DNA from: an uncultured Lachnospiraceae bacterium
GTDB lineage: Bacteria; Bacillota; Clostridia; Lachnospirales; Lachnospiraceae
Direction of reading: 5' to 3'
Assembly: GCA_947175435.1 (NCBI GenBank)
Contig: CAMWMS010000009.1
Span: forward strand, 1 to 35,226
Length of the DNA stretch: 35,226 nt
The position numbers and the translations under genes are program-made. Position 1 is the stretch's first letter. Each line of letters starts with the position of its first letter. Below, one piece after another: positions 678-25,827 of this stretch. The notes beneath the pieces are model-generated. The model searched no databases. It saw only the letters and a program-made list of their open reading frames with translations, and was not told the origin of the DNA.

Positions 678-1689
678 TCCGGATATCGATGTCCACATAA
701 TCATTGCAGACGGCGGGAAGTTCGCCGGTGGTCAGATAGGTAAACAGAATAGCAAGGGGCTTAGAACCCTGTAAGAAGGGCTGTTGGCAGATAGTAGCTG
801 CGATCAGTCCTTTTTCTATATACTCTCTTGTAGTATCGACGATATCGTTGGTGATGACGGTAATCCCGTTCTGACGTCCTGAGTCGGTCACGGCACGACA
901 GCCGCCGTAGACGCCGCCGGCGGTAAAATAGAGCGCATTGATCTCGGGATGGCGCACGAGCAGCGAGGCAGTGAGGTCGTAGCTTTCCGATTCATTGTCA
1001 TTATTATTGACGATATCCACTATGCGGATATTGCCGTAGGCAGCCGTGGCATGACGAAAGCCTGCGATACGTTCGGTGTGGCACAGGATATTCCGGGAAC
1101 CGGATATGATACCTACACGGACATCACCCTGAATGTGATTACAGGTCATCAGGTGCATGAGACCGCCGGCAGTTTCTCCCGAACGATAGAAATGACAGCC
1201 GATATAAGCGATACGCCTGGAGTTCTCGATATCCGTATTCAGCGTAACTACGGGGATACCGAGGGCGTGAAGTTCATCGATTTTCTCCCGTACGGCGGGA
1301 TCGTTGTAGGGGGAGAGTGCGAGGCCGTTGATACCTTCGGCGACAAGTTGGTCGATGGCATGTAGTTGCTGCTTTAGATCATAGTCGGTCTGACGAATCA
1401 GCACGGAACAGTTATAGTCTATAAGTTCCTCCGCCTTGGCGTTGACACCTGCCAGAATGTCATCATAGAAGACTGTTCCCAGCCCCAGCAGGACGACTCC
1501 GAGCTTCAGATTCTTCTTGCGGGCGGCGAGAACGATCCCGGCCTTATTGGGTTTATAGTCCAGAGTCTGTGCGATTTCCAGTACTTTCTGCCGCGTCTGT
1601 GCATTGACAGAACCGCGGTTGTTCAGTACGCGGTCTACCGTGCCGCGGGATACGCCTGCAAGGGCGGCGATCTCTTTGATGGTTGCCAT
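661..1689 (-). CDS. LacI-family transcriptional regulator
   Basis: A 342-residue protein with an N-terminal LacI helix-turn-helix (MATIKEIAALAGVSRGTVDR, then VLNNRG and the hinge region LDYKPNKAG), followed by a periplasmic-binding-protein-like sugar-sensing domain from about residue 60 to the end. The start at 1689 is chosen because AAAGGA lies about 7 bases upstream; a longer frame back to 1734 has no such signal. The gene is divergent from the xylB-like operon across about 310 bp. That region holds a LacI-type palindrome with a central CG, so the protein probably represses the sugar operon and perhaps itself. The effector sugar cannot be read from the sequence. Confidence 0.9.
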   Translation of the reverse strand: MATIKEIAALAGVSRGTVDRVLNNRGSVNAQTRQKVLEIAQTLDYKPNKAGIVLAARKKNLKLGVVLLGLGTVFYDDILAGVNAKAEELIDYNCSVLIRQTDYDLKQQLHAIDQLVAEGINGLALSPYNDPAVREKIDELHALGIPVVTLNTDIENSRRIAYIGCHFYRSGETAGGLMHLMTCNHIQGDVRVGIISGSRNILCHTERIAGFRHATAAYGNIRIVDIVNNNDNESESYDLTASLLVRHPEINALYFTAGGVYGGCRAVTDSGRQNGITVITNDIVDTTREYIEKGLIAATICQQPFLQGSKPLAILFTYLTTGELPAVCNDYVDIDIRIKENL

Positions 1690-1892
1690 GGGGAGTTCCT
1701 TTCTATAGATCGTTTGTGTGATTTTTGGCTGCATTTAGAGTAGCATAATGGGGGTGGGAAGTCAAATGCGGGGATAGGCCACTCGGACGCACCGCAATTC
1801 TGCGCTGTGCATTGGCTGGGGGATAAGGAGTAACGAAATAGACAATATGGAAGGTTACGTTTTGTGTATTATTACGAAAAAATTTTATGGTC

Positions 1893-1921
1893 TTGATTTT
1901 GCGTCGGGCAAAGATTATCAT
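1893..1921 (+). promoter_or_regulatory. Candidate promoter of the sugar operon
   Basis: TTGATT (1893-1898) and TATCAT (1916-1921) are separated by 17 bases, a plausible housekeeping promoter. It lies about 80 bases before the xylB-like start codon and directly upstream of the palindrome at 1937-1950. The rest of the 1690-2000 gap shows no coding potential. Confidence 0.5.
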
Positions 1922-1936
1922 GAAATTAATAGGTAG

Positions 1937-1950
1937 CGTGCACGTGCACG
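1937..1950. promoter_or_regulatory. Candidate LacI-family operator
   Basis: CGTGCACGTGCACG is a perfect 14-bp palindrome with CG at its centre, the usual form of LacI-family operators. It sits just downstream of the candidate -10 box, near the expected transcription start, where a bound repressor would block initiation. A further half-site-like GCGTGCAA follows at about 1957-1964. Confidence 0.6.
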
Positions 1951-2000
1951 GTCGAGCGTGCAAGATAGATTTGCAGGCTGAGTAAGAATGGAGGGTTACC

Positions 2001-3476
2001 ATGTTGTATATTGGCGTAGACTTAGGAACCAGCGCCGTGAAACTTCTGCTGATGGAGGGAAACGGTAAGATCGTAAATATTGTATCAAAGGAATATCCGC
2101 TCTATTTCCCGCATCCGGGCTGGTCGGAACAGAAGCCGGAGGATTGGTATGAGCAGAGCGTGGCAGGAATCAAAGAATTGATTGCCGGTGTGGACAGAAG
2201 TCAGATTGCGGGAATCAGTTTCGGCGGACAGATGCATGGACTTGTCATTCTGGACGAGAATGATGAAGTAATTCGTCCGGCTATCCTGTGGAATGATGGG
2301 AGAACTACGGAGGAATGCGATTATCTGAATCAGGTGATCGGCAAGGACAAATTGTCGGCTTATACCGCCAATATATCTTTTACGGGATTTACCGCGCCGA
2401 AGGTACTCTGGGTGAAAAATAAGGAACCCGAGAACTTTGCCAGAATCAGGAAGATCATGCTTCCCAAGGATTACATTGCCTATAAGCTTACGGGAGTCCA
2501 CTGCACCGATGTGTCAGATGCGTCAGGCATGCTTCTTTTCGATGTGAAGAACCGCTGCTGGTCTAAGGAGATGTGCGAGATCTGCGGGGTGAAGGAAGAG
2601 CAGCTGGCGAAAGTGTATGAGAGCTATGAGACGGTGGGGACGGTACTGCCTGAAATTGCGGAAGAACTGGGTATTCCGGCCACAGTAAAAGTGGCGGCCG
2701 GAGGCGGTGACAATGCGGCGGCAGCCGTGGGAACCGGTACGGTGGGTGACGGAATGTGTAATATTTCGCTGGGCACCAGCGGTACGATCTTTATTTCTTC
2801 CGGTAAGTTCGGCGTGGATAAGTATAATGCGCTTCATGCTTTTGCACACGCGGACGGGCATTATCATCTGATGGGGTGCATGTTAAGTGCGGCCTCCTGT
2901 AATAAATGGTGGATGGACGAAATCATCGGCACCACGGATTATGCGGCGGAGCAGAAAGCGATAACCGATGATAAGCTGGGGGAGAATCATGTATATTTCC
3001 TGCCTTATCTGATGGGAGAGCGTTCTCCTCACAATGATCCTAATGCACGGGGCACTTTTATCGGCATGACGATGGATACCACCAGAGCGGACATGACGCA
3101 GGCGGTACTGGAGGGTGTGGCTTATGCCTTGCGGGACTCGTTGGAAGTGGCGAAGTCTCTGGGAATTAAGATAGAACGGACGAAGATCTGCGGCGGCGGC
3201 GCGAAGAGCCCGCTGTGGAAAAAGATGATTGCCAACATCATGAACCTGAAGGTGGATGTGATCGAGAGCGAGGAGGGACCCGCTATGGGCGGCGCGATGC
3301 TCGCGGCGGTTGCCTGCGGTGAGTATACAAGCGTGGAAGAAGCGGCGGCGAAGATCGTCAAAGTAGTGGATACGGTAGAGCCCACGCTTGAACTTGTGGA
3401 GAAATATGAGGCCCGATATCAGAAATTCAAGAAGATCTATCCGGCGTGTAAGGAACTGTTCGGCGCTATCATGTAA
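2001..3476 (+). CDS. xylB: FGGY-family carbohydrate kinase, xylulokinase-like
   Basis: A 491-residue FGGY sugar kinase, the normal length for xylulokinase, which phosphorylates D-xylulose to xylulose 5-phosphate in the cytoplasm. Seen: the N-terminal phosphate-binding strand YIGVDLGTSAVK, the XylB-like segment GGQMHGLVILD followed by RPAILWNDGRT, the ATP-site glycine stretch VAAGGGDNAAAAVGTG and the C-terminal ICGGGAKSPLWKKM. GGAGGG lies 6 bases before the ATG at 2001. It is the first gene of a three-gene operon with a DUF4867 protein and an L-fucose/L-arabinose-isomerase-like enzyme, not with xylA. The true ketose might therefore be another pentulose or deoxyketose; family assignment is firmer than substrate. 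Confidence 0.88.
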   Translation: MLYIGVDLGTSAVKLLLMEGNGKIVNIVSKEYPLYFPHPGWSEQKPEDWYEQSVAGIKELIAGVDRSQIAGISFGGQMHGLVILDENDEVIRPAILWNDGRTTEECDYLNQVIGKDKLSAYTANISFTGFTAPKVLWVKNKEPENFARIRKIMLPKDYIAYKLTGVHCTDVSDASGMLLFDVKNRCWSKEMCEICGVKEEQLAKVYESYETVGTVLPEIAEELGIPATVKVAAGGGDNAAAAVGTGTVGDGMCNISLGTSGTIFISSGKFGVDKYNALHAFAHADGHYHLMGCMLSAASCNKWWMDEIIGTTDYAAEQKAITDDKLGENHVYFLPYLMGERSPHNDPNARGTFIGMTMDTTRADMTQAVLEGVAYALRDSLEVAKSLGIKIERTKICGGGAKSPLWKKMIANIMNLKVDVIESEEGPAMGGAMLAAVACGEYTSVEEAAAKIVKVVDTVEPTLELVEKYEARYQKFKKIYPACKELFGAIM

Positions 3477-3591
3477 AAGCGCTATAAATAAATAGTAACT
3501 GTTCAGAAGGTGCAGCTTCGTAACTGTGAAGAACAGAGTTATGAACAGCTATAATAAATATTGCAAACGTACAGAAAGGAGCGTATTACCA

Positions 3592-4215
3592 ATGGAGATC
3601 AAAAAAATTACAGACTCCGCATTTCGTAAATACGGCAGAGTCGTGCAGGGAATCGACTTCAGTGATCTGATGGAGGCTATTAAGAAAGAAACGCCGCTGC
3701 CGGAAGGCGTTGCCTATGAACCTTCGGTTAAGGTGTTAGAGGCGACGACCGCGGCGAAAGAATTACAGAAGAGAACATACGGAGAGCTGCCCATTGAGGT
3801 GGGATATTGCAACGGTCATAATTATAAGCTGAATGCGGTAGAGTACCACAGAAGCTCCGAGATCAATGTGGCGGCCACGGATGCGATTTTAATCGTCGGT
3901 ATGCAGCAGGATATTACGGATGATTTTACATACGACACGTCCTTAATGGAAGCATTCCTGGTGCCTGCGGGCACAGCAGTAGAAATTTATGCCACAACGC
4001 TTCACTATGCACCCTGCAGTGCAGACGAAGGCGGATTTCAAGTAGGGATAGTACTGCCTGCGGGCACGAATTACCCCTTGGACGAGGCACACGCGGATTG
4101 GGAGGATGCCCTGATCACGGCGAAGAACAAGTGGTTGATCGGTCATGCGGAAGGCGGACTGGATGCAGGTGCACATATCGGACTGATCGGAAAGAATCTT
4201 GATATCAGAGAGTGA
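3592..4215 (+). CDS. DUF4867 family protein, probably cupin-like
   Basis: A 207-residue cytoplasmic protein that I assign to DUF4867 from its overall pattern and its position beside FGGY kinase and sugar isomerase genes. No signal peptide or membrane segment is present. The centre and C-terminus (VEIYATTLHYAPC followed by GFQVGIVLPAGTNYPL) look like the strands of a cupin-type barrel, but no full metal-binding histidine set is evident. The start at 3592 follows AAAGGAG by about 10 bases; the longer frame from 3526 has no clear signal. Placed between kinase and isomerase, it may act on the same sugar, for example as an epimerase, mutarotase or auxiliary isomerase; this role is inference. Confidence 0.75.
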   Translation: MEIKKITDSAFRKYGRVVQGIDFSDLMEAIKKETPLPEGVAYEPSVKVLEATTAAKELQKRTYGELPIEVGYCNGHNYKLNAVEYHRSSEINVAATDAILIVGMQQDITDDFTYDTSLMEAFLVPAGTAVEIYATTLHYAPCSADEGGFQVGIVLPAGTNYPLDEAHADWEDALITAKNKWLIGHAEGGLDAGAHIGLIGKNLDIRE

Positions 4216-9146: not shown

Positions 9147-9188
9147 ATACCCTGCATATACTTGTAATAACAATAGTATGCAGGGTAT
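9147..9188 (+). promoter_or_regulatory. 12-bp inverted repeat covering the deacetylase ribosome binding site
   Basis: ATACCCTGCATA (9147-9158) and TATGCAGGGTAT (9177-9188) are perfect complements with an 18-base loop. The AGGG at 9182-9185, the only Shine-Dalgarno-like sequence for the ATG at 9193, is inside the second arm and would be hidden if the hairpin forms. It could equally be a weak terminator for the upstream gene or a protein operator. Confidence 0.5.
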
Positions 9189-9192
9189 TATT

Positions 9193-9699
9193 ATGCGTAA
9201 AAAGAAAACACATTGGAACGATAAGATTAAACTTGCGATGTGTGAATTAGAAGGAAAAATGCAGAAAGATTACGCAACAGGCGGGAATGAGCGGGTATGG
9301 CCGGCACCGGATCAGGTAGAAGCATGGACAGCACAGCGGCAGAGAGAGAAAAGCAGCGGCCGGTATTGCGGCAGTCAGCACTGTGGCAGCAGTGTGCCCT
9401 CCGAATACCGGACAAAGGAGGAGCAGAAACGAAAGGGATTTGTGCAGAATGTATTGATGCAGGTGGCGAAGTCGGCGGCATTTGCGCTGGCAACCGTTGC
9501 GCTGATACAGGGAGTGGTTAAGGTGCTGCCGGATTCCATTACGGTCAGCAGCTCCGTGGGCGGTCGGGAACTGCCGATCTATTGTGTGGAGACGGATAAA
9601 AAACAGGTGGCCCTCAGCTTCGATGCTGCATGGGGGAATGGTCGGTTGATGGAACGGGATTTCCGTGATAGAGTGCATATTTGTGTAGCAGTGAAATAA
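9193..9699 (+). CDS. PdaB-like polysaccharide deacetylase, 5' part interrupted by mobile element
   Basis: The host-derived part is codons 1-149 (9193-9640). It has a basic, poorly conserved N-terminus, a membrane anchor at about residues 87-108 (AKSAAFALATVALIQGVVKV) and the start of a NodB-type deacetylase domain, ELPIYCVETDKKQ then LSFDAAWGN, including the motif-1 aspartate. The frame then enters the inserted element and ends after 19 foreign codons at 9699. The histidine motif and all later motifs are missing, so this fragment cannot be an active enzyme. The rest of the gene starts at 21137. PdaB-type enzymes are linked to spore peptidoglycan maintenance in Bacillus; this gene's role is inferred from similarity. 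Confidence 0.85.
   Translation: MRKKKTHWNDKIKLAMCELEGKMQKDYATGGNERVWPAPDQVEAWTAQRQREKSSGRYCGSQHCGSSVPSEYRTKEEQKRKGFVQNVLMQVAKSAAFALATVALIQGVVKVLPDSITVSSSVGGRELPIYCVETDKKQVALSFDAAWGNGRLMERDFRDRVHICVAVK
9631..9652. repeat. Left attachment site (attL): 10-bp core plus left terminal arm
   Basis: Core TGGGGGAATG at 9631-9640 is identical to the right copy. Inside the element it is followed by GT and then CGGTTGATGG (9643-9652), which is the inverse complement, apart from one extra T, of CCATCACCG at the right end. Confidence 0.85.
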
Positions 9700-10108: not shown

Positions 10109-10444
10109 ATGAACAACGTAAAGTATTACAGTATCAATGAAGACGCAGCTCGCTGCGCAAAGGAGCTAAACAGTTTTTATGGAATGCATATCAGTTACAA
10201 ACCGCTTTGGCACACGTTGATAGAGCGCAACATGAGGAAAGAAGACTTAAGGCTTGCCGCCGGACTGACCACAAATATGATTGCCAATATGGGTAAGGAA
10301 GGGAAGAATATCAGCATGGACAAACTTGCCCATATCTGCGTGGCACTGGATTGTGATATTACGGACGTGATTGGGTTGGCCAGCGACGAGCCTTCCACCA
10401 TAGGAGGGAACGATAATGGGGAAATTAATAGAAAGAATTACTGA
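10109..10444 (+). CDS. XRE-family helix-turn-helix protein
   Basis: A 111-residue protein whose middle (residues about 30-95) is a Cro/C1-type helix-turn-helix of the small HTH_26-like kind: LWHTLIERNMRKEDLR, AAGLTTNMIANMGKEGKN and MDKLAHICVALDCDITDVI. This arrangement is very common for regulators in Firmicute mobile elements. AGAAAGGAG lies about 10 bases upstream. Its last 29 bases overlap the start of the tnpV-like frame at 10416, suggesting coupled translation. Its target is unknown; it is distinct from the leftward XRE repressor at 10828. Confidence 0.8.
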   Translation: MNNVKYYSINEDAARCAKELNSFYGMHISYKPLWHTLIERNMRKEDLRLAAGLTTNMIANMGKEGKNISMDKLAHICVALDCDITDVIGLASDEPSTIGGNDNGEINRKNY

Positions 10445-10786
10445 GAACAGCATTGATTATATTCTGGTAGGCGATTACTATATTCCGGACTTAAAATTGC
10501 CAGCGGAAAATCGCCCCATCGGACGTTATGGGCGGCTGCACAAGGAATATCTCAAGCAGGAGCATCCGGCACGGTACACTTCCCTATTCTTGACTGGGGA
10601 GTTATGGACATACCTTGCCGACCTGAGCGAGCAGGCTGAGGAACGGCTGCTCTTATCATAGAGCAAATGAAAGCTGCCGAGGGAGTGACTGAGGGACTGA
10701 AAAGCCGAAATCAATGGGTAGGGCAGATGAATAATATCCGTAACCGGGCAGAGGAAATTATAAGGAGTGAATTGATATATATTTGA
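10416..10786 (+). pseudogene. tnpV: TnpV-like transposon protein, frameshifted
   Basis: The first 81 codons (10416-10661) match the TnpV family pattern: VGDYYIPDLKLPAENRPIGR, HKEYLKQEHPARYTSL and LWTYLADLSEQAEER. The frame then ends at TAG 10659-10661. The expected C-terminus continues in another frame from about 10652 (IIEQMKAAEGVTEGLKSR, then MNNIRNRAEEIIRSE) and stops at 10786. One base lost near 10650 explains this. The start has AGGAGG 8 bases upstream. TnpV is an accessory gene of Tn4451-like mobilizable transposons, with no well-defined function. Its decay suggests that it is dispensable here. Confidence 0.8.
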
Positions 10787-10827: not shown

Positions 10828-11184
10828 CTAATTCTTTTTACGATCTAATACCGCCTGAATCATGATGGCAGCGATTTCCTGTTCGCCGGGTGATGTGTTT
10901 TCCCAAAGCTCTGTCAATTCCCTGATTTTACTGATTTCATTATTTGCCAGAGAATCTTGGAGAAGATAATCAGGGGAGATTTTTAGTGCATTGCAAATAT
11001 TTATAAATACTGGCAAGCTTGGAACCTTCGTCCCACCTTCAATCTGCCGAAGATAGGTTGCGTTGACGTTGCATAGCTCTGAAAGCTTGTCAGCCGTGAG
11101 TCCCCGGTTCTTTCTCACTATGTTAATCCGTTTGCCTAATCCTTTACTTTCCATTTGTTCACCCATTTCATAAGCTGTTAGCAT
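10828..11184 (-). CDS. XRE-family repressor-like regulator
   Basis: A 118-residue protein with a classic Cro/C1 helix-turn-helix at about residues 16-75 (LGKRINIVRKNRGLT, ADKLSELCNVNATYLRQIEGG, PSLPVFINICNALKIS), followed by a helical tail that may serve for dimerization. It is the only leftward gene of the element, the typical arrangement of a phage-like repressor. The start could be the ATG at 11184 (weak upstream GAGAAC) or at 11154; neither has a strong ribosome binding site. Three AGACTATA boxes lie upstream, and a fourth precedes the recombinase operon, so it may regulate both itself and excision; that is inference. Confidence 0.82.
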   Translation of the reverse strand: MLTAYEMGEQMESKGLGKRINIVRKNRGLTADKLSELCNVNATYLRQIEGGTKVPSLPVFINICNALKISPDYLLQDSLANNEISKIRELTELWENTSPGEQEIAAIMIQAVLDRKKN

Positions 11185-12431: not shown

Positions 12432-15400
12432 TTGACGGTAGAGGGAGAAGGTGATTTTTCGGATAATTACAGGATACCTTGGCGTGATTATAGCCACTCT
12501 ATTAAATCTGCTGAAGTAAATGTTAAAGGTATGACGAATGCTTCCTATATGTTTTATGACTGCAGCAACCTGACGAGTGTAGATGTGAGCGGCTTTGATA
12601 CGAGTGAAGTAACAGATATGAGTTATATGTTTCATCAATGTAGTAGTCTGACAAATTTAGATGTGAGCGGTTTCGATACGAGCAAAGTAACAGATATGGA
12701 TCATATGTTTAGTTATTGTAAAAATCTGATAAATTTGGATGTGAGTGGCTTTGACACGAGTCAAGTAACAGATATGGATCATATGTTTGGTGGCTGTATC
12801 AACTTGATGAGCTTGGATGTGAGTGGTTTTGACACGAGTGAAGTAACAAATATGTGGGCGATGTTTAATGGATGTGTCAGCCTGATCAACTTGGATGTGA
12901 GCGGCTTTGACACAGGTCAAGTAACAAGTATGGGTTGGATGTTTAACCGTTGTATCAGTCTGACAAGTTTGGACGTGAGTGGCTTTGACACGAGTCAAGT
13001 AACAGATATGAGGTACATGTTTAAAGATTGTATCAGTTTGACAAGTTTGGACACAAGTGGCTTCACTGGTAATATTTCAGAGATGTATGCTATGTTTAAA
13101 GGCTGTGGCAATTTGACAAGCCTTGATTTAAGTGGGCTGGCTGTTAGTAAAGGGGTTCAGACTGATGATGTGTTTACAGGGTGCACAAGTTTGACTACAA
13201 TTCATACCCCGCTTAATCTTGAACGGTCAATTACGCTGCCCGGGGAATCGACAGATATATGGTATCAGATGGATGGAGCAGAAATTACAGAACTCCCGAT
13301 GTATTTAAATTACAGTATTGTGATAAGCAAAAATGAAATACCGGTTATTAAATCAGCGTTAACGGCAACGAAAACAAAGACAAATTATGGCTGTGGAGAT
13401 CGGGTGGATATCGATGATTTGACTGTAACGTATTATGATGCTGACGGTATAGGAACTAAAATAACAGAGGGCTATTCTACAAATGCGGATGAGATAGATA
13501 TGTCTACCTTGGGCATCAAGATATTGAAGATAACTTATAATGGTTTGACCGCAACAGTGATGTTAAATGTCAAAAGCGGTTTCAATGGAAGTTTTGGCGC
13601 TATTACATGGGTCATTGATGTGGATGGGAAATTAACGGTGGATGGAACGGGTGATTTTTCAGATGATGACGGTTATTTCAATCAGGAGAGAGCACCGTGG
13701 TATGATTATGCGGATGATATCATATCTGCGGAAGTAAATGTTACAGATATGACGAACGCCTCTTATATGTTTAACGGGTGCAAGTATATTACAAGTATAA
13801 GTTTAGCGGGGGTTGATACGAGCAGAGTAACAAATATGGGCGGGATGTTTTATGATTGTGAGAGTCTGAAACGTTTGGATTTGAGCGGTTTAGACACGAG
13901 TCAGGTAACAAATATGTCTGAGATGTTTTATAATTGCAATAGTCTAAAAAGTTTGAATGTGAGCGGCTTTGATACAAGCCAAGTAACGAATACGAGAAGG
14001 ATGTTTTATGATTGTGAGAGTATGAAAAGTTTGGATGTGAGCGGCTTAGACACGAGTCAAGTAACGGAAATGGCTGGTATGTTTAGCGGGTGTAGCAGCC
14101 TAACAACCTTGGATGTGAGTGGCTTTAACACAAGCCAAGTAACAAGTATGTGGGATATGTTTAATAATTGCGAGAGCTTAACCAACTTGGATGTGAGCGG
14201 TTTAGACACGAGTCAAGTAATAGATATGGCTGGTATGTTTAGTGGGTGTAGCAGTCTAACCAACTTGGATGTGAGCGGCTTTGACACGAGCCAAGTAACA
14301 GATATGGCTGATATGTTTAGTGAGTGTAACAGTCTAACTAGCCTAGATGTGACTGGTTTCGATACAAGTAATGTAATAGATAGAGAATATGGTGGATGGC
14401 AAGGTATGGATGGAATGTTTTCATCTTGTAGCAATTTGGCAAGCTTGGACATAAATAGTTTCAATATGAGTAAATTAGACAGCGTATCTGGTATGTTTAT
14501 TGGTTGCACAAGCCTTGCAACAATTTATACTCCATGCAATATAAAATGTCCAGTTTCCCTCTCAGGGTCGTGGAATACAAAAGATATTTGGTATGATGAA
14601 GACGGGAATAAATATACAGAATTACCACAGAATCTGGACTACAGCATTCTCATCAGAAGAAATAAAATGCCTACTTTCGGTGAAATTGAGGCAAAAAAAG
14701 TAGAAACCGATTATATCTGCGGTGATACGGTCCATATTGATGATTTAACGGTATTATATTATGATGATTACGGCGTAGCGCATACACTTGGGAGCGGTGA
14801 ATATGCAACTAACGTTGATGAAATCGATATGTCAACGGCAGGAGAGAAAACATTAATTATAACCTATAATGATGGCTGGGACATTCTCACTTATAGAATC
14901 AAACTGACTGTAGCAAAGTATATGTTGAATGCTGACAATGTAATGATAACGCTGTCAGACACCTCGGATTATGTTTATGACGGAAATCCCAAAATACCTG
15001 AGGTAACGGTAGTGTATGTACTTGACAGTTACGCTGTAAGCGAAAATTCCACAACTGGCAGATATATCACATTGGAGAAAGACAGAGACTACACCGTAAC
15101 CTATGAAAACAATACAGACGCATTTGAAACCAATGCGGATATAGAGATGGCGAAAAATGCTCCCAGAGCCATTATTACAGGAAAGAATCAGTATGGCGGA
15201 ACAATCAGCAAATACTTTTCCATTCGAAAAGCAGAAGCGCCAAGGGGAGAGGAACAGGCTGTATTGATTCAGGACTTTGGTGAGGTACAAGAAGGACGTA
15301 CATTTGATCTCTCGGGATGTTTTGCAGATTATGGCAGTAAGACCAGATATTCGGTGGGACTGCCTATAGAGGACAATACGGTGCCCGGCAGTGTGCTTTC

Positions 15401-17933
15401 CGGGAAAGTTTCAGTGGATAAGAACGGCATTTTAACCTACGGAACAAATGCGGGAAAGGCCGGGGATTTTGCAATCATTCCAATCGTGGTTTCTTTCTCC
15501 AATTATAAAAGTGCCGGTCTTAATGTGAAAATCATATTTGATAAGCTGACACTGACGGTAGCCGATCCCATGGCTGTCCCAGAATCTGAAAGGCAGCTTG
15601 TTGCAGGCTCAAAGGTCACCCTGACATGCGAAACGGCAGGCGCGGGGATTTATTATACGACAGGTGACAGTGAGAAAGCATTGGCAGATCCGACGAAAAA
15701 AGACATTCGATATACAGAACCGATTACCATCGACAAAGATATGTATATAAAGGCAGTGGCCATAAAAGACGGCAACCGGAGCAAAATAGTTACGCTTCAT
15801 TATACTGTAATTGATGCGGCAGATAAAGTTTTAAGACCTTATGCTGTTCCGGGACAGGGTACAGTCGAGAACGGGACGAAAGTGGAATTAAAGTGCGATA
15901 CACCTGCTGCGGAAATTTATTATGTGACGGGTCAGAATGTGGATATGCTCGGCGCTGTGCCTGTGGATGATGCCCATAAGTATACGGAACCGATTGAGAT
16001 TACTAAGGATATGGTAATTAAAGCGATTGCCAAAAAAGACGGTATGAAGGACAGTGACCTTTCGACATTCAAATATAAGACCAAAGTGATACTTGATGCG
16101 CCTGTGGCTGATCCGGATCCCGGCATAGTTGACCGGGGAAGTTACATATCTTTGAAAGCTGGCAGCAATGTCAACATTTACTATACAATGGATCTGAGTA
16201 ATCCAGTGACGTCAGGATCGGCAAAGCTTTATGAGAAAAAGATTCGGGTTGACGGTGATCCAGGCAGTTCCATAGTTATTAAGGCCGTTGCGGAAAAGGA
16301 CGGTATTTATAGTGAGACTGCTGTCTTTACCTACACGGTTTCCGAAAATATAGTAAAAGGTTTACAGGTTATGCTGGCAGGCGATGACGAATTTACCTAC
16401 ACTGGAAGAGCCATTACTCCCGCAGTCATCGTTACTTATAATGGGGAAGAACTTACGGAAGGCAAAGACTATACGGTACGGTACAGCAATAATGTGAAAG
16501 CGGCGGATAAAAATGCGGGCAAGGCACCCAAGATCACGGTAACCGGCAAAGGCAATTTGACCAATAGCAGAAGTGTTACTTTCTGCATTGCACCCAAGGA
16601 CATTGGAGATGAAGTGGATGTAGTGGGTGGAAACATTGTGGTTGTGCAAGGAAAGACTGCTTCGCCTGTACTGTTTTATGACGGTGTGAAGCTGACTGCG
16701 AAGGATTTTGTGAACCCGGATGCTAAGAAGAAATATAATCAGGATGATACGGTGACGATTACAGGGAAGGGTAACTTCGAAGGGACGCGCGATATCGATG
16801 TCAAGGTTGTCAATAAGGCGGATTTGAAGAAATTCACTGTTACTATCAATAATCAGGCATTAAAAGAGGAACCCTTGGTTTATGACGGTGAAGCAAAAAC
16901 ATTAGATGGTTATTTCGAGGTTTTTGACAAAGCAGATAAATCAAGTCCTTTAGAAGAGTCTAGTGATTATACAGTCATTTATCCTAGGAATAATATCAAT
17001 GCGGGCAAAGTAAAGTTTACGGTTATAGGATTAGGTGAATATTACGGAACGGTTACTAAGACTTACACGATTAAGCCCAGAGTTGTTAAAACAGAGGCGG
17101 ACGGCAATATGGAAGTGAACGTAGATGATGGTGATAATTACTCTTTCAGAAATGGCGGTGTTACAATACCTGATTTAACTGTCATCTGCGATGGCGATGT
17201 CCTGGTTCCGGGAAAAGATTATAAGGTTACATATAGCAACAACAAGAAAATCTGTACGGATAGCAAGGCAAAATGCACCATATCCTTCACGGGCAATTAT
17301 AAAGGTAGCAAAGCGCTTACGCGGAAATTTAATGTTATTCCTGCTGTGCTGGATGATGTCGATCAGGTTAACGGATCGGAAATCGTTGCAGTCGGCGACA
17401 TGGTTTATAAAGGCAAACCCGGCGCTTATAAGTCAGTGCCTTATGTGACTGCAAACGGTGTACTGCTGAAATCCGCTGATTATAAGGTGTCTTATTATCA
17501 AGATCAAGACATGACACAGGTGATTGACGGCAAGACTGATTCGAGTTCGGTTGATCTTGCTGAAAGCGATAAGCAGACTGTGTATGTGAAGATTGAAGGT
17601 AAGGGGAACTACGAAGGCACTTTAACTGCGGCGTACAATGTCTACAGATTAACGGAGGATGTCATTGATCTTTCAAAGGCAAAGATAAATTTTGTTGGAG
17701 GAAATAGAGTAGCATATACCGGGGAAAGCGTTGAGCCTGAAATAGAGGTTATGTACAAGTCAGGAAAAGAATGGAAAAAAGTAGATGCCGATGATATTGG
17801 GGCATACGTGAAGGTTACTTATATCAATAATTTGAACAAGGGCAAGGCATCTGTAATGATCAATGGCAACGGCGGCAAATACGCGTGCAGCAAAACCGCA
17901 GTGTTCAGCATTGTGCCAAAGAGCATGAAGTAA
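12432..17933 (+). CDS. Giant BspA-family leucine-rich-repeat surface protein, main body
   Basis: The open frame runs without a stop from 12387; 12432 is merely its first TTG and has no ribosome binding site. Layout by nucleotide: eight DUF285/BspA repeats of 26 residues (about 12530-13200, unit MFxxCxSLTxLDVSGFDTSQVTD), a Big_3-like domain (13320-13570), a linker and ten more repeats (13745-14545), another Big_3-like domain (14640-14920), then YDG-like and linker sequence. Three chitobiase-C-terminal-like domains follow (15560-16345: IYYTTG, IYYVTG, IYYTMD), then about five YxG-P-V-Y-NN domains to the end. There is no LPXTG motif or membrane anchor, so cell attachment is unclear. The family is associated with adhesion. 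Translation as secreted protein needs the frameshift at 12385-12391. Confidence 0.88.
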   Translation: MTVEGEGDFSDNYRIPWRDYSHSIKSAEVNVKGMTNASYMFYDCSNLTSVDVSGFDTSEVTDMSYMFHQCSSLTNLDVSGFDTSKVTDMDHMFSYCKNLINLDVSGFDTSQVTDMDHMFGGCINLMSLDVSGFDTSEVTNMWAMFNGCVSLINLDVSGFDTGQVTSMGWMFNRCISLTSLDVSGFDTSQVTDMRYMFKDCISLTSLDTSGFTGNISEMYAMFKGCGNLTSLDLSGLAVSKGVQTDDVFTGCTSLTTIHTPLNLERSITLPGESTDIWYQMDGAEITELPMYLNYSIVISKNEIPVIKSALTATKTKTNYGCGDRVDIDDLTVTYYDADGIGTKITEGYSTNADEIDMSTLGIKILKITYNGLTATVMLNVKSGFNGSFGAITWVIDVDGKLTVDGTGDFSDDDGYFNQERAPWYDYADDIISAEVNVTDMTNASYMFNGCKYITSISLAGVDTSRVTNMGGMFYDCESLKRLDLSGLDTSQVTNMSEMFYNCNSLKSLNVSGFDTSQVTNTRRMFYDCESMKSLDVSGLDTSQVTEMAGMFSGCSSLTTLDVSGFNTSQVTSMWDMFNNCESLTNLDVSGLDTSQVIDMAGMFSGCSSLTNLDVSGFDTSQVTDMADMFSECNSLTSLDVTGFDTSNVIDREYGGWQGMDGMFSSCSNLASLDINSFNMSKLDSVSGMFIGCTSLATIYTPCNIKCPVSLSGSWNTKDIWYDEDGNKYTELPQNLDYSILIRRNKMPTFGEIEAKKVETDYICGDTVHIDDLTVLYYDDYGVAHTLGSGEYATNVDEIDMSTAGEKTLIITYNDGWDILTYRIKLTVAKYMLNADNVMITLSDTSDYVYDGNPKIPEVTVVYVLDSYAVSENSTTGRYITLEKDRDYTVTYENNTDAFETNADIEMAKNAPRAIITGKNQYGGTISKYFSIRKAEAPRGEEQAVLIQDFGEVQEGRTFDLSGCFADYGSKTRYSVGLPIEDNTVPGSVLSGKVSVDKNGILTYGTNAGKAGDFAIIPIVVSFSNYKSAGLNVKIIFDKLTLTVADPMAVPESERQLVAGSKVTLTCETAGAGIYYTTGDSEKALADPTKKDIRYTEPITIDKDMYIKAVAIKDGNRSKIVTLHYTVIDAADKVLRPYAVPGQGTVENGTKVELKCDTPAAEIYYVTGQNVDMLGAVPVDDAHKYTEPIEITKDMVIKAIAKKDGMKDSDLSTFKYKTKVILDAPVADPDPGIVDRGSYISLKAGSNVNIYYTMDLSNPVTSGSAKLYEKKIRVDGDPGSSIVIKAVAEKDGIYSETAVFTYTVSENIVKGLQVMLAGDDEFTYTGRAITPAVIVTYNGEELTEGKDYTVRYSNNVKAADKNAGKAPKITVTGKGNLTNSRSVTFCIAPKDIGDEVDVVGGNIVVVQGKTASPVLFYDGVKLTAKDFVNPDAKKKYNQDDTVTITGKGNFEGTRDIDVKVVNKADLKKFTVTINNQALKEEPLVYDGEAKTLDGYFEVFDKADKSSPLEESSDYTVIYPRNNINAGKVKFTVIGLGEYYGTVTKTYTIKPRVVKTEADGNMEVNVDDGDNYSFRNGGVTIPDLTVICDGDVLVPGKDYKVTYSNNKKICTDSKAKCTISFTGNYKGSKALTRKFNVIPAVLDDVDQVNGSEIVAVGDMVYKGKPGAYKSVPYVTANGVLLKSADYKVSYYQDQDMTQVIDGKTDSSSVDLAESDKQTVYVKIEGKGNYEGTLTAAYNVYRLTEDVIDLSKAKINFVGGNRVAYTGESVEPEIEVMYKSGKEWKKVDADDIGAYVKVTYINNLNKGKASVMINGNGGKYACSKTAVFSIVPKSMK
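12531..13200 (+). repeat. First block of eight 78-bp BspA repeats
   Basis: Tandem 26-codon units, each with a Met-x-x-Met-Phe start, Cys, Leu and the core LDVSGFDTSQVTD. The DNA is nearly identical between neighbours (for example ttggatgtgagtggctttga recurs), so unequal recombination could change copy number. Confidence 0.85.
13745..14545 (+). repeat. Second block of ten 78-bp BspA repeats
   Basis: Same unit as the first block with more divergence, beginning at MTNASYMF as the first block does. The preceding module (TWVIDVDGKLTVDGTGDFS) parallels the one before the first block, showing an internal duplication of a module plus repeats. Confidence 0.85.
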
Positions 17934-18093: not shown

Positions 18094-18256
18094 GCTTGGA
18101 CGGGCTTCACAGATAGTATTCGGTAGAACCCTATACAGGTTCAGATAAAGACCATTACAGGCAGAATTTCCATGAGGGCGGCTAAGAGTGGTAGCCTATT
18201 TCTAAAAAAACGGTATGATTGCGTGACCGATATTGAGTAAAAATATATGTGATTGC

Positions 18257-18264
18257 AGACTATA
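18257..18264 (+). promoter_or_regulatory. AGACTATA box before the recombinase operon
   Basis: A fourth copy of the octamer found three times before the XRE repressor. It lies directly after TTGCAG (18254-18259, overlapping) and before TATAAA about 15 bases further, so it could sit inside the promoter of the 58-codon gene and recombinase. Confidence 0.4.
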
Positions 18265-18324
18265 CAGTTCGCATATAAATAACAAAACGGAACCTGCTAC
18301 AAAATCAAATAAGGAGGTTAACAG

Positions 18325-18501
18325 ATGAAAGAGCCAAGCACATATAAAGTCGTCAGGGAATATGGCAATCAATACGGGTTGGAAGAACTAATGCGGCGGA
18401 TTATACGTTGTCATCTCGGGGAAAGTAATTATGCCGAAAGGGCAGGTGTGCAATTCCCGGAATCCAAGGTAGATGATTATGGCGTGCAGCTTACCGGATA
18501 A
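18325..18501 (+). CDS. 58-residue protein preceding the serine recombinase
   Basis: An open frame of 58 codons with AAGGAGG 7 bases before the ATG, the best ribosome binding site of the region. The product begins MKEPSTYKVVREYGNQYGLE and continues with LMRRIIRCHLGESNYAER; it is small, basic in the centre and soluble. It ends 7 bp before the preferred recombinase start, so the two are probably translated together. I do not recognise a family. Small proteins beside serine integrases sometimes act as recombination directionality factors; here that is only a position-based guess. Confidence 0.7.
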   Translation: MKEPSTYKVVREYGNQYGLEELMRRIIRCHLGESNYAERAGVQFPESKVDDYGVQLTG

Positions 18502-18508
18502 AGAGCAT

Positions 18509-20101
18509 ATGCCTGAAAATAATAACCAGTTAAAAACAGCATTATACATTCGTCTTTCGAGAGAAGACGGCGACAAATCGGAGAGCCTGAGTATAAGCAA
18601 TCAGCGTTTGCAACTGATGGAATATGTCAGCAGGAAGACGGATTTGTACCTGTATGATACATACATAGATGATGGCTATACAGGAACTAATTTTAATCGT
18701 CCTGCTTTCGAACGGATGATTAAGGATATTGAGTCCAGAAATGTACAGTGTGTGGTTGTCAAAGATTTGTCCAGACTGGGCAGAAACATGCCAGAGGTTT
18801 CAAGGTACATAAACGAGTATTTCCCGGCTAAAAAAGTTCGCTTTATTGCCATAAACGACAGTGTGGATAGAAAGTATTACGATAACGACGCCAGTGAAGA
18901 TATGATGATTGATGTCAAAAATATGTTTAATGGTTTTTATCCAAAAGATATATCCAAAAAGGTACGCTCGACTTTCAGAACCAAACAAAGCAATGGTCAG
19001 TTTATAGGTGCGTTTGCCAGCTTTGGATATGTTAAGTCGACCAAGGACCACAACAAACTGGAAGTTGATGAGTATGCGGCCGGTATCGTAAGGCGTATTT
19101 TTGCCATGTATGTCAAAGGCATAGGACAGAATACAATCGCAAAAATTCTAAATGAGGAGAACATACCATGTCCGTCAGAATACAAGAAGCAGCAAGGGCT
19201 CAACTATCATAACAGCAACCGGCTTGATGCAACCTCTTATTGGACATATTCTACGATAAGAAATATTTTAAAGAATGAAATTTATATTGGAAATATGGTG
19301 CAGAATAAGAGCTTTAGGCAGATGTGCAAGAAAAGTGCGGTAAGCCTTCCCAAGGAGCAGTGGATTGTTGTTGAGAACACGCACGAGCCGATTATAGATA
19401 GGGATACATGGGATAAAGTTCAGGACTTGTTGAAGAGAAATACAAGGCATACCAGTCTTACAGAAAATGTCCACATGTTTGCAGGTTATTTGAAGTGCGG
19501 TGACTGTGGGCGTGCCATGGTTAAAATTAGACGTAAAGGTGTCTGCTTCTTTAACTGCGGCAGTTATAACCGGTACGGAAAGAAATTCTGCAGCATTCAC
19601 AGTATCACGGAACAGGAGCTGGAGGGAATCGTACTGGATGATTTGAATCTGATTATCAGTTCTGTAAAGGATATCAGCCGGCTGATTGAAGAAGAAAACC
19701 AGAAGCAAAGAAAGAATCATGCAGATTTTCTGGGAGATATCTCTAAGTATCAGGTAGAAATTGACCGACTCGTAATGAAGAAGGAACGTGCCTACGAAGA
19801 TTATTCAGACGGCCTCATTACAAGAGATGACTACATGAGGTACAGAGATAAATATGAGCAACAGATTAGTACTGCCCGCTCTGCGATTGAAAAAATCAAT
19901 CAGTTGAAAAGCCAGGTGCCTGCAAAGAATCCATGGATTGAAAAACTGCTGCAATATGAGAAGCTGTACCGCCTTGACAGGGATATAGTAGTGGAAATGA
20001 TTTCCATGATTTACATCTATGAGGACAATACGATTAAGATTGTCTATAACTTCTCTGACGAATTGGAAGCATTATTAAACCGGCATGCCTGCAGTGATTA
20101 G
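18509..20101 (+). CDS. Large serine recombinase (TnpX/TndX-like)
   Basis: A 530-residue site-specific recombinase that probably inserts and excises this element. Order: a resolvase catalytic domain (residues about 10-155) with LYIRLSRED carrying the nucleophile Ser17, SLSISNQ, DDGYTGTNFNRPAFERM and VVKDLSRLGRN with conserved arginines; a recombinase domain (FGYVKSTKDHNKLEV onward); a zinc ribbon with CGDCGRAM and NCGSYNRYGKKFC; and a coiled-coil C-terminal region. All catalytic motifs are intact. The start at 18509 follows the upstream stop by 7 bases; a longer frame opens at 18473 with a weak AAGG. It lies near the right end of the element, as in Tn4451-like transposons. Confidence 0.93.
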   Translation: MPENNNQLKTALYIRLSREDGDKSESLSISNQRLQLMEYVSRKTDLYLYDTYIDDGYTGTNFNRPAFERMIKDIESRNVQCVVVKDLSRLGRNMPEVSRYINEYFPAKKVRFIAINDSVDRKYYDNDASEDMMIDVKNMFNGFYPKDISKKVRSTFRTKQSNGQFIGAFASFGYVKSTKDHNKLEVDEYAAGIVRRIFAMYVKGIGQNTIAKILNEENIPCPSEYKKQQGLNYHNSNRLDATSYWTYSTIRNILKNEIYIGNMVQNKSFRQMCKKSAVSLPKEQWIVVENTHEPIIDRDTWDKVQDLLKRNTRHTSLTENVHMFAGYLKCGDCGRAMVKIRRKGVCFFNCGSYNRYGKKFCSIHSITEQELEGIVLDDLNLIISSVKDISRLIEEENQKQRKNHADFLGDISKYQVEIDRLVMKKERAYEDYSDGLITRDDYMRYRDKYEQQISTARSAIEKINQLKSQVPAKNPWIEKLLQYEKLYRLDRDIVVEMISMIYIYEDNTIKIVYNFSDELEALLNRHACSD

Positions 20102-20400: not shown

Positions 20401-20433
20401 AATGATACAGGAGAAATTAAAGGAGGGTTGAGT

Positions 20434-20865
20434 GTGAAAATTTATTTAGATAACTGTTGTTATAACAGACCTTTTGATGACCAGAGTCAGATAAAAATTC
20501 ATCTTGAGGCACAAGCCAAATTATATATTCAAGCTAAGATTAGAGAAGGAGCCTATGATTTAGTTTGGTCTTACATTTTGGATTATGAAAATGGGAAAAA
20601 TCCATATGAGGAAAAACGACTTGCGATTGCTCCATGGAAGACGATTGCATCCTCGTGTATCGCGGAAGAAACAGAGGATATTCTCTCATTTGCAGAATCA
20701 CTTGCTTCCAAGGGAATAAAGACATTTGATGCTTTGCACATTTCCTGTGCGGTAGCGGCTGAGTGTGAATATTATTTAACTACTGATAAAAAGTTGTTGA
20801 ATACACCAGTACCGGAAATAAAGATTGTTAATCCTGTTGTTTTTGTAAGTGAAATGGAGGGATAA
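20434..20865 (+). CDS. PIN-domain protein, probable toxin-type ribonuclease
   Basis: A 143-residue PIN-domain protein. The N-terminus VKIYLDNCCYNRPF carries the first conserved aspartate; the C-terminal half has FDALHISCAVAAECEYYLTTDKKLL with further acidic residues expected at the metal site. PIN proteins cut RNA and often act as toxins of type II modules. The GTG at 20434 lies 6 bases after GGAGGG; the TTG at 20428 is too close to it. The next gene starts 2 bp after the stop. The pair is located at the right end of the element, where it could favour retention. No experiment supports toxicity here. Confidence 0.82.
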   Translation: MKIYLDNCCYNRPFDDQSQIKIHLEAQAKLYIQAKIREGAYDLVWSYILDYENGKNPYEEKRLAIAPWKTIASSCIAEETEDILSFAESLASKGIKTFDALHISCAVAAECEYYLTTDKKLLNTPVPEIKIVNPVVFVSEMEG

Positions 20866-20867
20866 AT

Positions 20868-21071
20868 ATGAGAACAGATACTGTGGTTAAGCAGGAAGGG
20901 ATAAATGCGTTAATTGCCCAATTAGGTTATGTTGATGCGGAACGTTTTATTGCTTTGATAAACAGCGAGTCTTTTGATTATACAAAATGGCGAGAACAGT
21001 TTTTGGATGCAGAATCTAGTGTGCGTGAACTAAGCCGAAAGGCTATGATGTATTCTGAAAAAAATGTTTAA
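20868..21071 (+). CDS. Small partner of the PIN protein, putative antitoxin
   Basis: A 67-residue protein beginning MRTDTVVKQEGINALIAQLG and containing RFIALINSESFDYTKWREQ. It starts 2 bp after the PIN gene stop, with GGAGGG inside the end of that gene, so the pair is cotranscribed and translationally coupled. Its acidic, helical nature and size fit an antitoxin, but there is no recognisable DNA-binding motif, and the toxin-first order is the less common one. It is the last gene of the element; a strong hairpin follows at 21082. Confidence 0.65.
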   Translation: MRTDTVVKQEGINALIAQLGYVDAERFIALINSESFDYTKWREQFLDAESSVRELSRKAMMYSEKNV

Positions 21072-21081
21072 CTGTTAGTTT

Positions 21082-21118
21082 GGAAAAAGGACAGTGTCAT
21101 GGGGTCCTGTCCTTTTCC
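21082..21118. terminator. Terminator just inside the right end of the element
   Basis: GGAAAAAGGACAG (21082-21094) pairs with CTGTCCTTTTCC (21107-21118), one A bulged, with A and T runs that make it work on both strands. It ends element transcription 19 bp before the right core. Confidence 0.75.
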
Positions 21119-21127
21119 ATTAACAGT

Positions 21128-21146
21128 CCATCACCGTGGGGGAATG
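21128..21146. repeat. Right attachment site (attR): right terminal arm plus 10-bp core
   Basis: CCATCACCG (21128-21136) directly precedes the core TGGGGGAATG (21137-21146). In the circular form it would face CGGTTGATGG from the left end. The 12 bases between the arms are centred on GA. Confidence 0.85.
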
Positions 21147-21718
21147 AGGATACTGGCCGGATTCTGGAGATTCTTAAGAAGCATAATGTGAAAGTGACGT
21201 TCTTCATGACCGGCGGATGGGTGGAGAGCTACCCGGATGACGTGAAGGCAATTCTGGCGGACGGGCACGACCTGGGCAACCACAGCGAGAATCATAAAAA
21301 TATGTCCCAGCTTTCCGACGAACAGTGTCAGGAAGAGCTGATGAAAGTACATACTAAGGTGCAGGAGCTTACCGGCTATGAGATGTGCCTTTTCAGACCG
21401 CCTTATGGAGATTATGACAATCATGTCATAACAAATGCACATAAATGCGGTTATTATCCGATTCAATGGTCGATCGATTCTCTCGATTGGAAGGACTACG
21501 GAGTGGACGACATCGTCAAGCGCGTGGTGGAGTCTGATAAGTTGAATAACGGAGCGATTATACTTATGCATAATGGGGCAAAATACACGGCGGACGCGCT
21601 GGAGTCGGTCATTACCGGACTGCAGGATAAAGGGTATGAGCTGGTGCCGATCTCGCAGCTGATTTACAAGGACAAATATCACATGAAGGCGGACGGGACG
21701 CAGGTGTCAGGGCAGTAA
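21137..21718 (+). CDS. PdaB-like polysaccharide deacetylase, 3' part
   Basis: The 3' part supplies most of the NodB-type catalytic domain: WGNEDTGRILEILKKHN, TFFMTGGW, the metal-binding GHDLGNHSENH (motif 2), LFRPPYGDYD (motif 3), SIDSLDWKDYG (motif 4) and AIILMHNG (motif 5). The motif-1 aspartate is missing because it lies in the 5' part ending at 9640. Joined through the 10-bp core, the frame codes for about 339 residues with one anchor segment and all five motifs. In place, the frame opens at a TTG (21080) inside the element's terminator, with no ribosome binding site, so it is probably not translated. The overall pattern matches PdaB-type sporulation deacetylases. Confidence 0.85.
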   Translation, partial: WGNEDTGRILEILKKHNVKVTFFMTGGWVESYPDDVKAILADGHDLGNHSENHKNMSQLSDEQCQEELMKVHTKVQELTGYEMCLFRPPYGDYDNHVITNAHKCGYYPIQWSIDSLDWKDYGVDDIVKRVVESDKLNNGAIILMHNGAKYTADALESVITGLQDKGYELVPISQLIYKDKYHMKADGTQVSGQ

Positions 21719-24362: not shown

Positions 24363-24405
24363 AAAGCCGACAGATCTGTGACGAGTAGCAGACTGTCGGC
24401 TTTTT
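24363..24405 (+). terminator. Terminator of glgC-glgD
   Basis: AAAGCCGACAG (24363-24373) and CTGTCGGCTTT (24393-24403) form a perfect 11-bp stem with five T residues from 24401. Confidence 0.85.
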
Positions 24406-24482
24406 GTGGAACTGCTGGCGGAAGTATTAACTGTTTTTCACAATGAAATTGATGAAATAAGATACTGGAATGGTGAAAATGG

Positions 24483-24511
24483 TTGTATATACGGAGAATA
24501 TTGTCTATAAT
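24483..24511 (+). promoter_or_regulatory. Promoter of the Uma2-family gene
   Basis: TTGTAT (24483-24488), 17 bases, TATAAT (24506-24511). The same promoter with the same spacing is kept in the decayed copy at 20199-20227, which supports that it is real. Confidence 0.7.
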
Positions 24512-24536
24512 AGAATCAAGAGTGGAGGTGCGAAGG

Positions 24537-25070
24537 ATGGATGCATTGAAACATGAAGAAACTTATACCATAGATGATATTTATGCTTTACCGGATGGAG
24601 AGCGTGCAGAGCTGATTGATGGAAAGATATATTATATGGCTCCGCCGAGTTGGACGCATCAACGAATAAGTAGTAGATTGCATCAAGTAATCGCGAATTA
24701 TATTGACAGTAAAAATGGAACATGTCAAGTTTTAGCGGCTCCGTTTGCTGTATTTTTGAATGAAGATGATATAAATTATGTTGAACCGGACATTTCTGTG
24801 ATTTGTGATGAGTCTAAATTAGATGAAAAAGTCTGTCATGGCGCACCGGATTGGATCATTGAAATTGTATTGCAAAGCAGTAAATCGAGAGATTATATGA
24901 CAAAGCTGTTTAAATATCGTACAGCAGATGTCAGAGAGTATTGGATTGTTGATCCGGAAAATCGGATGGTTATGGTTTATGAGTTTGAAAAAGATATAGT
25001 GGAACAATATAATTTTGGTGAAGAGGTGCCGGTTGGAATATATGATGGTTTTTCAATAAAAGTAGAGTAG
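24537..25070 (+). CDS. Uma2-family (DUF820) restriction-endonuclease-fold protein
   Basis: A 177-residue protein of the Uma2/DUF820 family, which has a PD-(D/E)XK nuclease fold but mostly unknown function. Typical parts: YTIDDIYALPDGERAELIDG at the start, IYYMAPPSWTHQRIS, then YVEPDISVICDESKL and PDWIIEIVLQSSKSRD carrying the presumed acidic and polar catalytic residues, and VREYWIVDPENRMVMVYEF. GGAGG lies 8 bases before the ATG at 24537; the frame from 24483 starts inside the promoter and is rejected. A broken copy of this gene and its promoter lies within the mobile element at 20118-20400. Confidence 0.88.
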   Translation: MDALKHEETYTIDDIYALPDGERAELIDGKIYYMAPPSWTHQRISSRLHQVIANYIDSKNGTCQVLAAPFAVFLNEDDINYVEPDISVICDESKLDEKVCHGAPDWIIEIVLQSSKSRDYMTKLFKYRTADVREYWIVDPENRMVMVYEFEKDIVEQYNFGEEVPVGIYDGFSIKVE

Positions 25071-25177
25071 TTAAGGCAAAATATAAAGATGAATTAGAAA
25101 ACGAGTATACTCAGAGCGGACAGCAGTATGGTGCCGGAATCTGTCAGACAAAGCTAATCTGTACGGGGAGGTTACGT

Positions 25178-25393
25178 ATGAATAAAGAATCCTTTTCATT
25201 TGTTGTGTATATGATTCATGCCTGTGCCGATAAGTGGAATATGATGCCCTCCGAGGTTTATCGGACATTACAGAGTGTAGGGTGCATTGATGGTTTCCTT
25301 GTACCACATTATGATATTCTGCATACACAAGGAACCGGATATATTGTGGATGATATCAAAAAATATCTGAAAGTGCGGGGTGTGGCAGTATGA
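25178..25393 (+). CDS. DUF3791 protein, putative antitoxin
   Basis: A 71-residue protein of the DUF3791 type (FSFVVYMIHACADKWNMMPS, then ILHTQGTGYIVDDIKKYL). GGGGAGG lies 6 bases before the ATG. Its last four bases overlap the start of the DUF3990 gene (ATGA), so the two are translationally coupled. DUF3791 genes are regularly found beside DUF3990 genes, and the pair is regarded as a possible toxin-antitoxin unit; in that reading this is the protective partner. No DNA-binding motif is visible. Confidence 0.78.
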   Translation: MNKESFSFVVYMIHACADKWNMMPSEVYRTLQSVGCIDGFLVPHYDILHTQGTGYIVDDIKKYLKVRGVAV

Positions 25394-25827
25394 TCGTTTA
25401 CCATGGATCAACAGAGATTGTGAGAAATCCGGATATAGGACATTCCTATCGGTCGCTTGATTTTGGCATGGGTTTCTATGTAACTACAGTCAGAGAGCAG
25501 GCGGAAAGATGGGCAAGGAGAAAGGCACATATTCTTGGAAAAGATAACGCGGTTCTGAATATTTATCGGATGAATGATGTTGCCAGTGAGTTTGTGGTAA
25601 AATCTTTTGATGAAGATTTGGTGGAATGGATTGATTTTGTGTGTAAATGTCGGGATGGGAAGAAGGACTATCTGAAGTATGATTTGATATTTGGAAAAGT
25701 GGCAAATGATAAGGTGTTTCGGGTAGTAGATATGTATCATACGGGGATCTGGGATAAGGAGCGAACTGCATTGTTAAAATGCAGTTTTTTTAATATACTT
25801 AAAGCCGGATACAGCGAATCCGTTTGA
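25390..25827 (+). CDS. DUF3990 protein, putative ADP-ribosyltransferase-like toxin with altered C-terminus
   Basis: A 145-residue protein with the DUF3990 pattern: MIVYHGSTEIVRNPDIG, then SLDFGMGFYVTTVREQAERW and YDLIFGKVANDKVF. The His-Gly-Ser, the FYVTT strand and an acidic C-terminal region resemble ADP-ribosyltransferase-like folds; this is a family-level inference. The end is odd: after HTGIWDKER the frame runs through a perfect terminator hairpin (25764-25792) and on to 25827, and family members are usually somewhat longer with a different tail. A 3' deletion that joined the gene to a terminator would explain this, so activity is uncertain. Confidence 0.75.
   Translation: MIVYHGSTEIVRNPDIGHSYRSLDFGMGFYVTTVREQAERWARRKAHILGKDNAVLNIYRMNDVASEFVVKSFDEDLVEWIDFVCKCRDGKKDYLKYDLIFGKVANDKVFRVVDMYHTGIWDKERTALLKCSFFNILKAGYSESV
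25764..25792 (+). terminator. Terminator hairpin inside the 3' end of the DUF3990 frame
   Basis: AACTGCA (25764-25770) pairs with TGCAGTT (25780-25786), followed by a run of T to 25791. Located within coding frame, 36 bases before the stop codon. Confidence 0.65.

Follow-up and report, generated by a model that had tools for sequence, protein, structure and literature searches.

An element inside a PdaB-like deacetylase gene

The window, by which we mean the whole 35,226-nucleotide stretch of Lachnospiraceae DNA analyzed here, contains an 11,506-bp integrated element that lies inside a single polysaccharide deacetylase gene, PdaB-like in sequence (Table 1). The translation of the 5' half ends in ...LSFDAA and is followed by the TG of a Trp codon, the insertion codon being the TGG of the catalytic motif FDAA-W-GNED. 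Intact orthologues, with L042 and L061 among the closest, are continuous across the insertion site, and the joined window sequence agrees with these two. The top NCBIfam match of the joined protein is TIGR02764 (spore PdaB) at 219.7 bits, below the curated cut-off of 237.4, and the split gene is the top PdaB match genome-wide. Spo0A is also present in the host genome. The gene appears to be of the sporulation type, with a PdaB assignment just under the cut-off. It is found, whole or in part, in 76 of 77 genomes of the genus.

Table 1. Features of the window, with coordinates, strand and the evidence for each.
Feature	Position	Strand	Evidence
5' half of split PdaB-like deacetylase gene	9178..9632	+	ORF; intact orthologues; TIGR02764 for joined protein
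TG crossover dinucleotide in attL	9631..9632	+	attL/attR and empty sites of relatives
Right arm of attP palindrome, GGGGAATGGTCGGTTGATGG, element-derived	9633..9652	+	14/20 symmetric about TG; contains CGGTTGATGG
Cro/C1-type HTH protein	10109..10444	+	PF13443
TnpV-family protein	10416..10661	+	PF14198
HTH regulator	10828..11184	-	PF12844
Cargo: 1833-aa BspA/DUF285 leucine-rich-repeat surface-type protein	12432..17933	+	Domain search
Conserved 58-aa ORF, overlaps recombinase start in another frame	18325..18501	+	Homologues precede the recombinase gene in most relatives
Large serine recombinase, 542 aa (Resolvase + Recombinase + Zn ribbon)	18473..20101	+	Domain search; relatives
PIN-like protein, weak (PIN E 0.017, below cut-off)	20428..20865	+	Pfam
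Small ORF adjoining PIN-like protein	20868..21071		
Left arm of attP palindrome, CCATTAACAGTCCATCACCG, element-derived	21117..21136	+	Symmetry about TG; contains CCATCACCG
TG crossover dinucleotide in attR	21137..21138	+	attL/attR and empty sites of relatives
3' half of deacetylase gene (WGNEDTGRIL... to stop)	21137..21718	+	ORF; Polysacc_deac_1; orthologues

The 58-aa ORF matches no family in a Pfam search; judging by its position, it is perhaps a recombination directionality factor. The directionality factor of skin, skr, overlaps the start of spoIVCA in another frame (PMC6957869), and the window ORF is placed in the same way relative to its recombinase. A GCATATAWATA block at ~18251-18270, 5' of this ORF and the recombinase, is conserved in relatives. 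A search for a sigma-E/K promoter 5' of the recombinase gave no convincing match, and we recognized no promoter type in the conserved block. The PIN-like protein and the ORF beside it are a possible toxin-antitoxin pair. Cargo DNA (12432-17933) has no match to L006 or L007, and the element of L072, at only 5.4 kb, lacks the giant BspA-like leucine-rich protein. An apparently minimal 3.3-kb element, with little beyond a recombinase, lies in the deacetylase gene of L119 (~781-4105). Outside the window's element, within 24383-25767, positions 25147-25763 are ~86% identical to DNA beside the recombinase inside the element of L007/L072, which suggests that gene cassettes move between element and chromosome. 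Elsewhere in the host genome, contig C38:63-4193 (L002-L004) carries three tandem serine recombinase genes, a different kind of element.

Attachment sites and the crossover dinucleotide

The original prediction, made from the window alone, put both ends of the element within a few bases of their actual positions, recognized an imperfect inverted repeat in the joint of the circle, and attributed the recombinase to large serine recombinases related to TnpX and TndX; all three points are borne out by comparison with relatives. It also proposed TnpX/TndX-type transposition with crossover at a GA dinucleotide (9636-9637 / 21142-21143) inside a shared 10-bp core, and the junctions of relatives, together with their empty sites, bracket TG instead. 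We number from the T of the core, TGGGGGAATG, as position 1. In L072, whose recombinase is 98% identical, attL reads TGGGGG whereas attR reads TGGGGC, as do L042 and L061, the nearest empty sites; exchange must therefore fall before position 6. Position 5 differs in L010 and L080, and position 3 is non-host in L075, L079 and L082, so that TG, with which the TGG codon begins, alone remains. The attR base preceding position 1 is element-derived, and differs from the host base in several elements including that of the window. Provided that the family has a single crossover point, TG is well supported as that point, and it still falls within the shared 10 bp.

The 10-bp core was also considered as a target duplication and rejected. 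The length shared by attL and attR varies among relatives, from 11 bp in L073 to 5 in L072, 4 in L010 and L080, and 2 in L075, L079 and L082; because it shrinks to 2 bp, the identity is not a duplication and is partly an accidental likeness of attP and attB.

Symmetry of the circle joint was examined in 11 elements, each joint being reconstructed from the attR arm followed by the attL arm. In the window joint, ungapped 20-bp arms about TG at core positions 1-2 match at 14/20 positions (CCATTAACAGTCCATCACCG against the reverse complement of the right arm, CCATCAACCGACCATTCCCC; P = 3 × 10−5 for one centre, 6.5 × 10−4 for any centre), whereas equally long arms centred on GA are at background level (5/20). 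TG was the centre of the top dinucleotide-centred 20-bp palindrome in 11/11 joints, with 12-15 matches, as against 0-10 for GA. It is likewise the top centre in L119 (arms 17/20 symmetric), L082 and L085, the last in a cwlD gene where CA is TG on the other strand. The left arm carries a conserved outer block, CCATYAAC (21117-21124), and nearer relatives conserve both this block and an inner block, CATNCCCC. Serine integrase attP half-sites are ~25 bp long with an outer zinc-ribbon motif (PMC3783163), and the arm spacing in the window is consistent with such half-sites.

The sequences on which the GA proposal was built do exist, at exactly the positions given: CCATCACCG at 21128-21136 and CGGTTGATGG at 9643-9652 are inverse complements except for one extra T (CGGTGATGG, the reverse complement of CCATCACCG, against CGGTTGATGG), and the predicted joint CCATCACCG-TGGGGGAATGGT-CGGTTGATGG has GA at the centre of a 12-base spacer. 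When the 80-nt joint is shuffled by mononucleotides, 1.3% of shuffles contain an arm of 9 bp that has no more than one bulge and a spacer no longer than 20, which makes the observed pair mildly unusual. These arms are not a matched pair, however, since an inner block of one side is set against an outer block of the other. Moreover, positions 6-7 read CA in the L072 attR and in empty sites L042 and L061, and TA or AA in other relatives. Comparing the ends across relatives therefore upheld the boundaries and the inverted repeat but neither the GA crossover nor the pairing of the arms. Taken together, an integrated element, its deacetylase site and a TG crossover make up a reading that we regard as very probably correct.

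Recombinase class and target choice

The affinity with TndX that might favor a GA crossover is real. TndX is the closest named recombinase in a plasmid search (36.4% identity over 93%), TnpX is the top PDB match, the window enzyme nests near TndX in a recombinase tree where the TndX branch is long, and TndX itself uses GA (PMC3672683, PMC4430133). The element shares with those of TndX (Tn5397) and TnpX (Tn4451) a broad recombinase lineage and a TnpV-family gene. Unlike them, it uses TG rather than GA and one fixed target codon rather than relaxed GA sites, and its recombinase has no DUF4368 match, compared with 59.8 bits in TndX (L110). No conjugative genes were recognized among the element proteins searched. 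Of the features of the TnpX/TndX class, only homology was found, and since related elements lack a GA-centred geometry, that geometry lends no support to the class assignment. We consider GA crossover extremely improbable. The recombinase is a distant, site-specific relative of TndX, and we file the element as a site-specific large serine recombinase (LSR) element that would work like an intervening element.

Relatives of the recombinase, 46-99% identical, lie at the same codon of the same deacetylase gene. Such insertions occur in at least 15 genomes of the genus (G000, G009, G011, G012, G015, G040, G045, G046, G049, G056, G060, G063, G068, G073 and G075) and in 9/19 family-level matches; three of the 19 (L122, L124 and L126) gave no target assignment. 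They are also found in public records (L008-L012) and in other genera (L111-L114, L119-L121, L123 and L128). Other relatives lie in cwlD-like amidase genes (L085, L086, L115, L116, L118 and L125) or other Amidase_3 genes (L117, L127 and L129), at the GHGG motif with the dinucleotide CA (TG on the other strand). The top match of the cwlD target is TIGR02883, with a score just under the curated cut-off. Symmetry at the amidase CA is 15/20 in L085, weak in L125 (10/20) and without a clear peak in L127. In a tree of 51 recombinases, grouping by target exceeds chance, with several switches. As among the site-specific LSRs of Durrant et al. 2022 (PMC10083194), diverse LSRs converge on one codon of one gene family; unlike those, the window clade additionally targets the amidase GHGG codon. 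The deacetylase target is absent from the main text of that study, and we found no earlier reports of deacetylase or cwlD insertions in the literature searched.

Further breaks in the deacetylase gene lie near residues 96, 110 and 184 of a 260-aa query, and those at 96 and 184 adjoin distant recombinases (24-29% identity). Altogether it is split in ~32 of the 77 genomes of the genus, some cases being uncertain owing to contig ends. Two independent recombinase elements occupy different codons of one deacetylase gene in L010, L083, L089 and L113. In four genomes (L143 in G050, L144 in G004, L145 in G052 and L146 in G005), an intact gene is followed within ~0.1-1.8 kb by a second 3' copy that starts at residue 110 or ~181-184, possibly left by elements bringing a replacement 3' end.

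Selection on the split genes and possible excision

Joined split genes are free of stops, and where two of them have an element in common, their pairwise omega is 0.03-0.06. For window/L072/L073 and L080/L081, recombinase dS is far below host dS. Recombinases so much less diverged than the host gene indicate that these elements moved recently, so intact halves there say little, and we set aside their dN/dS as proof of selection while split. Most insertions are recent. The 4.1-kb elements of L076 and L087 are collinear at 90-91% identity, with host flanks at 88-94%; because the elements have diverged like the flanks, this insertion probably predates the species split, and the deacetylase gene still has an omega of 0.029 at a dS of 0.30. 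The L082/L091 insertion may in part be similarly old (omega 0.088 for the 5' half, recombinase dS 0.42). Low omega in old insertions is not the pattern expected of a dead gene, and purifying selection acts on the split genes, including where the element is inherited vertically.

The element could still be site-specific and integrative in the ordinary way, inactivating a deacetylase gene that vegetative cells can do without, with no programmed excision. Near-identical recombinases have recently spread horizontally among diverged hosts, and this, together with variable cargo and the outcome of the promoter search, would suit such an element. Against it stand the undecayed state of the split genes, with omega still 0.03-0.09 where the insertion looks to predate the species split (L076/L087, partly L082/L091), and the concentration of the clade's targets on cortex-type enzymes (deacetylase, cwlD and amidases). 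We give this explanation substantial weight, though somewhat below an even chance. A further reading is that no excision is needed and the gene halves function as split or truncated proteins, started for example at a TTG (21080) inside the element; an in-frame ORF (21080-21718) does cross from the element into the 3' half. Its product would be missing the deacetylase's motif-1 residues, elements with other ends do not conserve the element sequence that precedes the site, and the 5' half is conserved as well; we consider this reading very unlikely.

In our main reading, the recombinase joins a pseudo-palindromic attP, with 20-bp arms around TG, to attB at the deacetylase TGG codon; a serine integrase acting at TG in both integration and excision is well supported. 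Together with a directionality factor, perhaps the 58-aa ORF, it would then excise a circle and restore the gene exactly, as the geometry of insertion implies. We judge the chances to be even that excision is timed to sporulation, in the mother cell, as for skin, vfbin, gin and SPbeta (PMC5595907, PMC4191935, PMC10747680, PMC6957869); we infer this timing from the targets, the host Spo0A and these precedents. In Clostridioides difficile, cwlD and several polysaccharide deacetylases are under sigma-E control (PMC3789822). The element would thereby ride in a gene that only a terminal cell requires. Like skin in sigK, vfbin, gin in gerE, yin in yabG and SPbeta in spsM, it has a large serine recombinase, lies within the coding sequence of a sporulation-type gene (here a PdaB match just under the NCBIfam cut-off) with both halves intact, has att inverted repeats about a central dinucleotide, and would permit exact gene restoration. 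It differs from these in its target, a PdaB-like deacetylase (cwlD or amidases for relatives), in being short and without recognized phage genes, in its Lachnospiraceae gut host, and in that its excision during sporulation is a prediction.

More broadly, we tentatively propose, with a likelihood just short of even, that a Lachnospiraceae recombinase clade has specialized on active-site codons of spore-cortex enzymes, the deacetylase being a four-position hotspot (~40% of the genus, unrelated elements) that mother-cell excision rebuilds. The GA guess gives way to a mapped attachment site, comprising attP arms, TG and the attB codon, which is usable as an integrase tool or for testing. The comparison with ~15 related elements places this one in a mobile family that has repeatedly interrupted, but not destroyed, the spore-wall genes of gut bacteria, and many gut bacteria carry a spore-cortex gene in split form. 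Annotation pipelines would label the deacetylase gene as broken in many gut genomes, although it may be functional. If excision is developmental, programmed sporulation rearrangement would extend to new genes and to a large family that has been little studied.
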